DNA of 21,525 nucleotides from Syncephalis fuscata (Eukaryota > Zoopagomycota > Zoopagomycetes > Zoopagales > Piptocephalidaceae): the NCBI GenBank assembly GCA_025786725.1, contig JAHLTZ010000153.1, forward strand, positions 1-21,525, written 5' to 3'. Below are positions 4,170-10,034 of the stretch, one piece after another (the stretch's first letter is position 1; each line of letters begins with the position of its first letter). The notes under the pieces were generated by a model, which was not told the DNA's origin, did not search any database, and worked only from the letters and a program-made list of their open reading frames with translations. A program made the position numbers and the translations under genes.

Positions 4170-4389
4170 GCACAGTTGAATATGGGCAACTAGATGCAAA
4201 GTTGTTGGCAAAATAATGATTTCATTGATTAAAGACTGGATAAGCCGGAGCATTGGCCAAAACTTGATATATAAATAGACTGGACGGTGTAGTTGTCAAA
4301 TGGTCTTGCTTTTTACCGAATATATACCTAAAGTGTATTGGAATAGTGGTTCGATTGCACTACCAATGCTAATGTCTTGAAACCGTTGA

Positions 4390-6524
4390 TTATGCTGTAT
4401 TTACAAATAAAGATATTATATGTCATATAATTAATGTATAAACCATCGATATACAATACTACTTACAACCTATTAGTATTAAGTTGTTGGTACACATGGT
4501 GTATAACATGTAGTTAGTGAGTAATTAATTAATATATAATACAACTTACATTCCTCTAATGTTGATTTGTTGATAGATACAGTACATGATATATGATTAG
4601 TGAATATCCAGTTAATATACAATACAACTTACTATCTATTATATTAAGTAATTGATACACACAGTACATATTATATAATTAATGTATAATCAGCTAATAC
4701 ACAATACTACATACCGCCTATTAATATTAAATAATTGGCACAGTCAGTAAATAGTATAGTTAATATATAGTCAGCTAATACACAATACTACTTACAAACT
4801 AATGATATTAAATAATTGGTGCAATCGATAAATAGCATGTGATTAGTGAGTAATCAATTAATACACAATATCACTTACAGCCTATTAATATTAAATAATT
4901 GGTACAATAAATAAATAGTATAGTTAGTGTATAGTCAATTAATATACAATACCACTTACACCCTATGAATATTAAATAATTGGTATAATCAATAAATAAC
5001 ATAGTTAATATATGGCCAGTTAATACACAATACAACTTACCAGCTATTAGTATTAAATAGTTAATAACATTAGTAAATAGCATAGTTAATTTATAGTCAG
5101 TTAATATACAATACAACTTACAATCTATTAGTATTAAATAGTTAATAACATTAATAAATAGCATAGTTAATTTATAGTCAGCTAATATACGATACAACTT
5201 ACGACCTATTAATATTAAAGAATTAATACAGCCAGTAAATAACATAATTAATGTATAGTCAGTTAATGTACAATATCACTTACCCACTATTAATATTAAA
5301 TAATTGGCACAATTAGTAAATAGCATAGTTAATAGATAGAAAATTAATATACAATACAACTTACTGCCTATTAATAGTAAGTTATTGATACACACAATAC
5401 ACGATGTATAATTAGCCAGTAGTCGGTTGATATATAATGCTACTTACATCCTATTAATATTAAATTAATACACACAGTATATGGATATAATCAGTGAGTA
5501 ATTAGTTAATATAAAATGCCACTTACTTTCTATTATATTAAGTTATCGATGCACGTAATTCATGATATATAATTAGTTAATACTCAATTAATATGCAATA
5601 TAGCTTACTAACTATAGCATTAAGTTGTTGATATACATAATACATGGTATATAATTAATTTACAAGTCAGCAACATACAATACAACTTACGGCCTATTAA
5701 CATTAAGTTATTGATAGATATAGTGTATAATATATAATTAGCCAATGCTCAAGCAATATACAACATAACTTACATGCTATTAATATTGAGTTATTGATAC
5801 ACGTATCACATGGTATAAATTAGCACATAATCAGTTAATATACAATACAACTTACCCCCTATGTCATTAAGTTGTTGATACACACAATACATGGAATATG
5901 ATTAATTTATAAGTCACCAGTATACAATATTACTTACTGCCTATTCGTATTAAGTCATTAATCCACATAGTACATCATATGCAATCAGTAAGTAATCAAT
6001 TGATATACAATACAACTTACATCCCGCTAATATTAATTAGTTGATGGATGTAGTACATGGTATATAATTAGTGTATGTCCTATTGATATACAACGCAACC
6101 TACCAGCTATAAATATTTATTTGTTGAAGCACACAGTACATAGTATATAATTAGTGCGTAGTTAGTTAATATATAATACAACTTACAATCTATTAATAAT
6201 AAATAGTTGATACAATTAGTAAATAGCATGTGATTAGTAAGTAAGTAATTAATATACAATACAACTTACCTTCTATTAATAATAAATGATTGGTACGATC
6301 AACAAATAGCATGTGATTAGTGCAGTCAATTAGTACACAACGCAACTTACTGGCTATTATAATCATTATTTAGAAATACTGTTAGTAAGCATAATAATAT
6401 GATATATCTATTGTTATTGCAGCATACCAGCACGACGAACTAAGGCTGGATTGGCATCCACCATGACTGTAGCGGCCACAAGCGCAACGACAATGGTGCA
6501 AACGACGGCAATGGAAAGCTTCAT
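4390..6524 (-). CDS. Secreted six-cysteine peptide gene built from 24 microexons
   Basis: Exon 1 (6524-6428, 97 nt) encodes a signal peptide: M-K-L-S, a hydrophobic core to about residue 22, likely cleavage after V-D-A (residue 24), and a dibasic R-R at 30-31. It ends at donor GTATGC in phase 1. The next introns end in AG followed by 3-nt exons at 6351-6353, 6270-6272, 6187-6189, 6104-6106, 5938-5940, 5856-5858, 5774-5776, 5691-5693, 5609-5611, 5527-5529, 5448-5450, 5365-5367, 5284-5286, 5203-5205, 5122-5124, 5041-5043, 4960-4962, 4879-4881, 4796-4798, 4715-4717, 4633-4635 and 4467-4469, and 6-nt exons at 6021-6026 and 4550-4555. Acceptor CAG at 4397-4395 leads to the last exon (4394-4390), which ends in TAA. 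The total is 180 nt, 59 residues. Cysteines fall at 39, 42, 46, 52, 54 and 58 (C-x2-C-x3-C-x5-C-x-C-x3-C). Phase 2 hits a stop; phase 0 is open but gives no cysteine. No family is recognised; the spacing only resembles small disulfide-knot peptides. No transcript was available. Confidence 0.72.
4440..6427 (-). repeat. Tandem array of ~82-bp intron/microexon units
   Basis: There are 24 units with a spacing of 79-84 bp between equivalent points. On the minus strand each runs GTAAGT, a TTGTATTGTATATTAA-like segment, a CTGAC/CTAAT branch-point-like element, an AT-rich middle and AATATTAATAG, followed by three (twice six) variable bases and the next GTAAGT. Donors are GTAAGT in 21 units and GTATGT (4714), GTAAGC (5608) or GTAGGT (6103) in three. 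The triplets are about 47% GC (37 of 78 bases), against 19% in a representative unit intron (15 of 78, at 5044-5121). The array evidently grew by tandem duplication. Confidence 0.9.
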
Positions 6525-8605: not shown

Positions 8606-9230
8606 TAATAAAAACATTATTCAATCCCTAGTCTTTGTTTCTCTTATTTTACATCAACACCTGTTCAAGTAACCTCAACGGCATGCCGTATATTCTGGTT
8701 ACAACTGCCGCCACAAGATCTTCCTGGTGAAGACAGTCAGCCTATCATTATTGCATATGGTAGAGGCCATTTGCTTCATCAATGATTGGCAAATAATCTG
8801 CGCCTACCAAGTTGATACCAAGAATGCTTAAGACAATGGTGAACATCAGAAACGCTAGTCGTCCTACCTTTTTGTCACCATAGACGAGTATCTTACATTG
8901 CAAATATGCCCAAAATGCAACAGTAGAAGATTGGAGAATAGAATAGACTATTTAGATGCAAAGAAACCACACTGTACGTAGTAACAGCAACAACAACTGC
9001 GGAACGATATGGAATCGCAATCAATGGCTTTTATTAATATTCTATCAATCTTTCTATGCATAGCCAACAACAACGATCGGCCTCATGAATTTCAAGTAAT
9101 CAAATAAAGACACTATACTTGTGGTTTGTTATGCATAACAGCAGTAACAGTGGCTATCCTACGGCCACTTTGTTACAATTGACTTCAATTGGAACGAATT
9201 TTGCTTTGAGGGCTTTAAATGTGGGAGTCA
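8606..9230 (+). pseudogene. Fanzor/TnpB-like nuclease relic, copy 2
   Basis: A frame open to TGA at 8783 includes Q-L-P-P-Q-D-L-P-G and P-I-I-I-A-Y-G, resembling the middle of fungal Fanzor proteins. After a gap with stops, the frame from 8859 reads V-T-I-D-E-Y-L-T-L-Q-I-C-P-K-C (cysteines at 8907 and 8916), matching the D-E-Y-x-T-S-x-x-C-x-x-C segment before the zinc ribbon, up to TAG 8979. The second knuckle (C-G, 8998) and W-N-R (9010-9018) follow in a shifted frame, where the catalytic Asp of NRD has become Asn (AAT, 9019-9021). The tail N-N-D-R-P-H-E-F-Q lies in yet another frame. At least three lesions and the lost Asp mean it is inactive. The 3' part is homologous to 1850-2200. No terminal repeats or guide RNA region were identified. 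Confidence 0.78.
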
Positions 9231-9587: not shown

Positions 9588-10034
9588 CTACTCATAGATG
9601 AGCGATTCGATGACACGCTTGTGGGACTGGACACCATCCTTGAACCAGAGGGAGATTTCATGTTCGGCGCTCTCGACGCTGTCGGAACCATGGCACAAGT
9701 TGCGACCCATATCAATGCAGAAGTCGCCGCGGATGGTACCTGGAGCTGAAGCCAATGGGTTGGTGGCACCGAGCATGACACGGCCAGTCTTGACGACTTC
9801 CTTACCGCCCCAGACCATACCGACAACAGGGCCGGAGGTCATGTAGGTCATAAGGCTTGGGAAGAAGGGCTTGCTCTTAAGATCGGCGTAGTGCTCTTCC
9901 AAAAGATCGCGTGTTGGGTGGATAAGACGCAGGGCAAGGAGCTGGTATCCCTTGCGTTCGAAACGGCTGATGATATCGCCGACCAAACCGCGCTCGACGC
10001 CGTCAGGCTTGACCATGATGTAAGTGCGCTCCAT
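9588..10034 (-). CDS. NDK1: Nucleoside diphosphate kinase
   Basis: A single uninterrupted exon encodes 148 residues, the normal length for group I NDKs. It opens [13 protein letters not shown], with the nucleotide-binding lysine at residue 9. The active-site segment is [13 protein letters not shown], where His115 is the residue phosphorylated during catalysis. The last residues before the stop are I-Y-E. The enzyme transfers the gamma-phosphate from ATP to NDPs by a ping-pong mechanism, usually as a cytosolic hexamer, to balance NTP and dNTP pools. The start is fixed by the family N-terminus; there is no upstream in-frame extension. It is GC-richer than its surroundings and, unlike its neighbours, has no intron, as expected of a highly expressed gene. 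No defects. Confidence 0.97.

Follow-up and report, generated by a model that had tools for sequence, protein, structure and literature searches.

The window, the whole stretch of DNA analysed here, comprises 21,525 nt from Syncephalis fuscata, a member of the Zoopagales; the available portions of two papers describe Syncephalis as mycoparasites (PMC10386755, PMC6784888). On its minus strand lies a predicted gene in which a signal-peptide exon is followed by a tandem array of introns separated by tiny exons; the stop codon lies in the last exon (Table 1). The initial annotation had described 24 units between a signal-peptide exon with a donor and an exon with an immediate stop, with an AG and a GTAAGT-type donor enclosing 3 bases in 22 of the units and 6 bases in the other 2; the units were found exactly as described, and both flanking exons were confirmed. 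The introns measure 74-80 nt except for the final one (72 nt), and the first donor of the array lies 77 nt from that of the signal exon. Microexon 23 counts as 6 nt (AG-AGGAAT) only if the first AG is taken as the acceptor.

Table 1. Predicted features of the array gene in the window.
Feature	Position	Strand	Description
5' region adjoining start codon	6525..6604	-	common to array genes and most intronless copies
Exon 1	6524-6428	-	97 nt, ending in phase 1; encodes MKLSIAVVCTIVVALVAATVMVDANPALVRRA + G, a predicted signal peptide with a dibasic site; donor GTATGC
Tandem array, 25 introns	4395..6427	-	introns 72-80 nt; repeat units 79-83 nt
Microexon 1	6351..6353	-	CCA
Microexon 2	6270..6272	-	AAG
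Microexon 3	6187..6189	-	ATT
Microexon 4	6104..6106	-	CTG
Microexon 5	6021..6026	-	CGGGAT, 6 nt; acceptor AG 3 nt further upstream
Microexon 6	5938..5940	-	GCA
Microexon 7	5856..5858	-	GGG
Microexon 8	5774..5776	-	CAT
Microexon 9	5691..5693	-	GCC
Microexon 10	5609..5611	-	TTA
Microexon 11	5527..5529	-	AAA
Microexon 12	5448..5450	-	GAT
Microexon 13	5365..5367	-	GCA
Microexon 14	5284..5286	-	TGG
Microexon 15	5203..5205	-	GTC
Microexon 16	5122..5124	-	ATT
Microexon 17	5041..5043	-	CTG
Microexon 18	4960..4962	-	GGT
Microexon 19	4879..4881	-	GCT
Microexon 20	4796..4798	-	TTT
Microexon 21	4715..4717	-	GCG
Microexon 22	4633..4635	-	ATA
Microexon 23	4550..4555	-	AGGAAT, 6 nt
Microexon 24	4467..4469	-	GTT
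Last exon	4170..4394	-	CA, stop TAA (4392-4390), then 3' region; 4170 is not a mapped end

Exon 1 encodes a hydrophobic N-terminus (MKLSIAVVCTIVVALVAATVMVDANP), taken by inspection as a predicted signal peptide, and after this signal-like start the dibasic RR. All introns are in phase 1, so that codons are completed across the exon junctions. Joined in order, with the reading frame set by the signal exon, the exons yield a six-cysteine peptide (...VRRAAKDSAGCRACLKRCMGHSGCFCDKECS*); after VRRA the predicted product reads AKDSAGCRACLKRCMGHSGCFCDKECS and then stops, with its six cysteines within 27 residues. A genome search with the joined mature peptide returned no candidate, a result of little weight. 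Scans of the window for Rfam families and tRNAs gave zero matches. Elsewhere in the window, an ordinary gene for nucleoside diphosphate kinase occupies 9588-10034 on the minus strand and shares 93% identity with its counterpart in Syncephalis pseudoplumigaleata, and a 47-nt direct repeat (89% identical, at 1873-1919 and 8915-8961) flanks the array gene with its copies 7 kb apart; by eye, this repeat belongs to a longer similar stretch.

The gene is one of a large family. Its signal peptide matches 150 scored places among 314 candidates, the weakest with an E value of 3e-7, and these places take in both array genes and intronless genes. When the 80 bases upstream of the start codon were set side by side for 38 array and 11 intronless genes, only the region of loci L071 and L072 was unlike that of the other compared genes. 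These two loci encode a different type of peptide: together with the proteins P0129, P0130 and P0131, they carry the same signal peptide before other mature parts (for example GPIPPFGACKCRDDDGYC..., or a cysteine-free one), and the signal exon seems to be common to several peptide types. A profile of 21 family members run against the protein database matched 11 deposited proteins, and a search with one intronless copy gave four matches; every match in both searches is from S. fuscata.

Array genes were decoded with splice-site profiles that made no use of frame and had no preference among exon lengths of 1-12. The 41 input sequences (the window and L021-L060) gave 37 genes with 851 exons; L021 was decoded separately, and L034, L045 and L047 were left unparsed by the start and donor patterns. 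Though lengths up to 12 were allowed, only exons of 2, 3, 5 and 6 nt were called. Under a first-AG rule, an acceptor choice likewise made without use of frame, 849 of the 851 exons are divisible by 3: 818 measure 3 nt and 31 measure 6 nt, leaving one of 2 nt and one of 5 nt. The initial decoding contained four 2-nt exons, of which three become 6 nt under this rule. Exon 1 ends in phase 1 in all 37 parsed genes. Introns, surveyed in 26 genes, are mostly 73-80 nt long, with GTAAGT as the donor in 614 of 711 cases; 6 of the 711 donors read GCAAGT, which suggests that the arrays include some GC-AG introns.

A last exon was located in 23 genes; 22 of them have 18-42 called units, and the remaining one has 10. 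The decoder skipped 1-3 units in 12 of these 23 genes, so that their peptides lack residues; zero units were skipped in the window gene. Some array copies are broken. L027 (with the 2-nt exon) and L056 (with the 5-nt exon) both miss the usual stop and stay open for 32 residues of the last exon, as a frameshift would predict, and several arrays are interrupted by insertions. The inserted DNA (about ...cttgtgagcccccgctgcgcataattaaagaatttgcgctgcttcc...) is similar in L025, L037, L038, L039, L040, L043, L053, L054 and L058, where it follows the last decoded unit; it is an apparent mobile element recurring in the family.

A stretch of 2201 bases of the window (contig C61, 10900-13100) is 99% identical to part of contig C2 beside L021, so that L021 probably represents the second haplotype at the window locus; the copy numbers of the family may include second haplotypes more generally. 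In L021 the first donor is lost, reading ATATGC in place of GTATGC, and one later donor reads GTAAAT. An apparent shortage of one unit in L021 relative to the window gene was rejected, as the unit is present with a weaker donor that the decoder missed.

Because training of the decoder's site profiles had used 3-base units only, motif counts across the genome are a cleaner test of exon length. In the 28.95-Mb genome, the pattern ATTAATAGNNNGTAAGT occurs 1727 times and its reversed-pattern control 0 times. Written as the unit motif ATTAATAG-N3-GTAAGT, these 1727 sites compare with 12 for spacings of 1, 2, 4 or 5 bases together (8 with 1-2 bases, where the control gives 3, and 4 with 4-5 bases, where it gives 1). 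Judged from these counts, the 3-base spacing of the AG and GTAAGT motif is not due to chance. The exact motif is found in 395 of 874 units of 38 decoded genes, from which ~3,800 microexons can be roughly extrapolated for the 29-Mb assembly, haplotype copies included. Unit motifs also lie on opposite strands of contig C2, at ~520293-522764 and 537092-539571, with some of the motifs 241 nt from each other, perhaps as another type of array or as a recent inverted duplication.

The joined reading frame was assessed in 26 non-redundant genes, drawn from the 30 of the 37 decoded genes that have at least 8 units; the seven with fewer than 8 were excluded. Read in the signal exon's frame, the joined exons contain 0 stops in 739 codons, compared with a mean of 43.8 and a minimum of 27 in 2000 rounds of shuffling exon order within genes. 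The same frame holds 118 cysteines, twice the shuffled mean of 58.1 and above the shuffled maximum of 77. The offset that reads each triplet as a codon is also nearly stop-free (3 stops in 737 codons, with 3 cysteines), so that stop counts alone fail to pick the frame; the third offset has 69 stops and 27 cysteines. The choice of frame is made by the order test, the cysteines and the homology to intronless proteins described below. Were the array instead translated without splicing, as a minisatellite that codes for a 27-amino-acid repeat (81 nt), the minus-strand open frame of 124 aa that crosses part of it (5245-4871) would be accounted for. The frame of the signal exon, however, stops soon after its donor (open frame of 41 aa), the conserved positions are the splice sites, and a single frame cannot stay open across the array because unit lengths vary, with donors spaced 79-83 nt apart; such a reading is hardly credible.

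Independent evidence for the joined frame comes from intronless copies. Twelve loci were fetched for the long open frames in their signal-peptide matches, and nine (L061-L069) proved intronless; in these the same signal peptide runs straight into a contiguous cysteine-rich peptide. Beyond their stop, these loci resemble the sequence that follows the last acceptor in array genes, and the 3' region of the window gene's last exon is also present in them; L069 is without the usual stop, and its frame continues. L070 failed every filter. Deposited protein P0001 is identical, letter for letter, to the open frame of L063 and L064. One correspondence between the two kinds of gene involves L024, whose product, assembled from 34 called exons and omitting one unit skipped by the decoder, aligns over residues 2-35 of its own 35 with BDF19DRAFT_449394 at a score of 97 (KDPAKCNQC..NYPYPSQA.. 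against KDPAKLCDKC..NYPYPSLA..). The best of 20,000 exon-order shuffles scored 54 and the other two frames 11 and 13. BDF19DRAFT_449394 is an independently deposited protein, intronless in the S. fuscata genome.

More broadly, 13 of 27 array products compared with the nine intronless peptides reached a score equalled by at most 5 of 500 shuffles. The similarity of the other 14 was not significant in this comparison, in keeping with fast divergence. Two deposited gene models touch on the arrays themselves. Residues A-K-D of P0002 (BDF19DRAFT_453770) require two consecutive 3-nt exons (CCA and AAG), after which the model enters an intron; the model of P0003 also ends in an intron, and one of its residues fits no exon choice that was tried.

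Divergence between copies was measured in the well-aligned parts of ten pairs, each locus being used once. The acceptor AG had changed in 0 of 429 positions, the donor hexamer in 13 of 1323 and the signal exon in 25 of 958, compared with 500 of 9289 in mid-intron (5.4%) and 109 of 682 in the triplets (16.0%). The triplets thus diverge about three times faster than mid-introns when the ten pairs are pooled, and the initial observation of variable triplets between conserved flanks holds in the form that triplets diverge faster than introns while the splice sites are nearly frozen. The excess is present in nine of the ten pairs and reversed in L046/L050; it is slight in three pairs (window/L021, L044/L049 and L032/L039), and three pairs, one of them involving the frameshifted copy L027, supply 78 of the 109 triplet changes. 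In 13 overlapping pairs, 144 of 816 triplet positions had changed, compared with 967 of 18,441 intron positions outside the splice sites. We interpret this pattern as diversifying selection on the peptide combined with strict constraint on splicing; exchange of units between copies could add to the divergence of the triplets.

These results also bear on whether the array is a single long minisatellite intron, excised in one piece or through recursive steps in which all of it is lost, so that the triplets never appear in mRNA. Tandem repeats of ~81-83 nt do exist at the locus, and GT-AG motifs would be copied along with such a repeat. Yet a joined frame free of stops where shuffled orders average 43.8, a doubling of the cysteines over the shuffles and homology of the joined peptide to an intronless gene are not expected of non-coding triplets, and the splice sites of a mere repeat would not stay nearly frozen while the introns drift. 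We consider a non-coding array very improbable. The proposal of a single gene with 24 tiny exons is instead supported by the open joined frame relative to order shuffles, the enrichment and spacing of cysteines, the intronless homologues of the predicted product, the faster divergence of triplets than of introns beside nearly frozen splice sites, and the restriction of the AG-to-donor spacing to 3 across the genome. Taken together, these comparisons of sequence show the triplets to be coding, in the called order and frame, with splice sites under strong constraint. With high confidence, then, we read the locus as a gene in which 24 exons of 3 or 6 nt stand between a signal-peptide exon and a terminal exon giving the stop, and in which the mature part of a predicted secreted six-cysteine peptide is encoded almost one codon per exon.

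The predicted products are characterized by the cysteine spacing CxxCxxxC...CxxxC. For comparison, knottins (inhibitor cystine knot peptides) have six cysteines that form a knot of three disulfides. After the signal, 23 decoded genes, of which 12 have skipped units, encode six cysteines (13 genes), eight (1), five (4), four (2) or two (3). In a Pfam scan of 21 members, no family fits the set: seven families were each matched by one of the 21, with E values up to 1. The best of these matches, Toxin_2 in one member (E 0.00025), is read as a likeness in cysteine spacing. A sequence search against solved structures found no match. A single-sequence structure model of the intronless P0001 is helical and of low confidence (pLDDT 66), and comparison of this model with the PDB gave zero matches at E <= 0.001.

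The microexons could also serve as cassettes, with varied subsets joined in different mRNAs and many peptides made from each gene. Skipping would keep the frame, given that 849 of the 851 exons are symmetric and in one phase. In the 711 cases considered, skipping a single exon creates a stop in 47, compared with 47.5 expected from random pairing, so that there is no sign of selection for exon skipping; skips would also be expected to alter the spacing of the cysteines. Use of the microexons as cassettes is unlikely.

How such a pre-mRNA might be spliced is suggested by the dimensions of the array. Very short exons are hard to use, since splice factors bound on their two sides collide, and recognition across a 3-nt exon is implausible. 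Recognition across introns is plausible here, as the introns are mostly 73-80 nt long and 614 of 711 donors read GTAAGT. We propose that splicing of the pre-mRNA relies on intron definition and probably proceeds stepwise from 5' to 3', which is the simplest arrangement. With a GTAAGT left three bases beyond every junction, able to act as the next 5' splice site, the process would be recursive and ratchet-like. Known ratchet points are located within long introns and contribute no sequence to the mRNA, whereas each step in S. fuscata would leave one codon. The likeness lies in the adjoining acceptor and donor and in a splice that regenerates the 5' splice site, as set out in the available part of PMC8605326.

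The history of the arrays was approached through a tree of 23 array and nine intronless genes built from the flanks and the signal exon. The best tree requires three or more changes of intron state, two of them forced by well-supported branches. Six intronless copies share a clade (98/97) with the array genes L023, L024 and L032. The interspersion of intronless and array genes, with at least two changes of state, would be compatible with intronless ancestors into which introns were inserted between codons by introner-like gain, although it does not by itself fix the direction of change. Insertion one by one would leave intermediate exons of 9, 12 or more bases, of which the decoder called none, and neighbouring introns of an array resemble each other as tandem copies do. 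We know of no cause of intron insertion at every third base in one phase. Introner elements are near-identical introns scattered through many unrelated genes; the analysis covered this one family. Intron gain on this scale is decidedly unlikely, and the same lack of called 9- or 12-base exons makes an origin of the intronless copies from whole spliced mRNA more likely. The intronless copies would then derive from reverse transcription of fully spliced mRNA; in the available part of PMC8831610, which deals with 1-nt exons of plants, intronless copies are explained by intron loss mediated by reverse transcription.

Arrays appear to grow and shrink by whole units of intron plus codon. The exon series of L022 and L026 agree except at one place, where CCA ATT CCA CTG ATT in one gene corresponds to GGG GCT in the other; with arrays of 2847 and 2603 nt, the two genes differ by three units. 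Since each such event would move whole units, residues would be gained or lost in frame. We lean slightly towards a reading in which the repeat unit of the tandem array is one codon, so that unequal recombination adds, deletes or swaps residues without breaking the frame. In the same reading, held with the same slight preference, the disulfide-rich family would evolve residue by residue, up to 44 exons would be joined in each short mRNA, and intronless copies derived from mRNA would return to the genome.

Several known gene families and splicing systems resemble the arrays in part. Like the S. fuscata family, whose products are predicted to be secreted, the schistosome MEG genes encode variable, secreted parasite proteins through many tiny symmetric exons and are hard to annotate, as described in the accessible text of PMC10526429. 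That text gives 10 to 20 short exons, mostly of 15 bp, and introns of 100-5000 bp. The initial annotation stated that the exons of microexon-rich genes such as MEG are generally of about 6 nt or more; this agrees with the 6 bp minimum in the paper's results and disagrees with the '3-81 base pairs' of its abstract. The S. fuscata family shares the short symmetric exons (849 of 851 divisible by 3) and differs in having 818 of 851 exons of 3 nt and introns mostly of 73-80 nt in tandem repeat. The aphid bicycle genes, as presented in the consulted part of PMC9168663, likewise form a large family of candidate effectors that evolves fast, and their numerous small internal exons share one phase. The exons average ~17 per gene and are nearly all in phase 2, in contrast to phase 1 after exon 1 (37 of 37) and 849 of 851 exons of 3n length in S. 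fuscata, and the same part of the paper mentions neither single-codon exons nor a tandem intron array. Homology to MEG or bicycle proteins was not found with the 21-member profile, which matched S. fuscata proteins only. From these comparisons, the family belongs to neither.

In plants, the available part of PMC8831610 reports splicing of a 1-nt exon in APC11, also cites VPS55 and notes conserved GTRAGT donors. The plant genes described there have one ultra-short exon or two adjacent microexons, whereas most of the S. fuscata genes have 18-42 in a row. Single exons of 1-3 nt are already known. What appears to be new is the gene layout, in which 18-42 of these exons follow one another in a tandem intron array and make up the mature part, with introns of ~78 bases separating nearly all codons; among the matches listed in a search of the open-access literature, there was no gene made of consecutive single-codon exons.

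Predicted secretion, the cysteine scaffold, the size of the family and the fast-evolving triplets suggest that the peptides act where the mycoparasite meets its fungal hosts or competitors. The family is largely missing from annotation, with 11 deposited proteins compared with 150 scored signal-peptide places. Apparent runs of up to 42 single-codon exons across a large family would make the recognition of 3-nt exons directly testable in a fungus with short introns, and they suggest a route by which a peptide family may vary one residue at a time.
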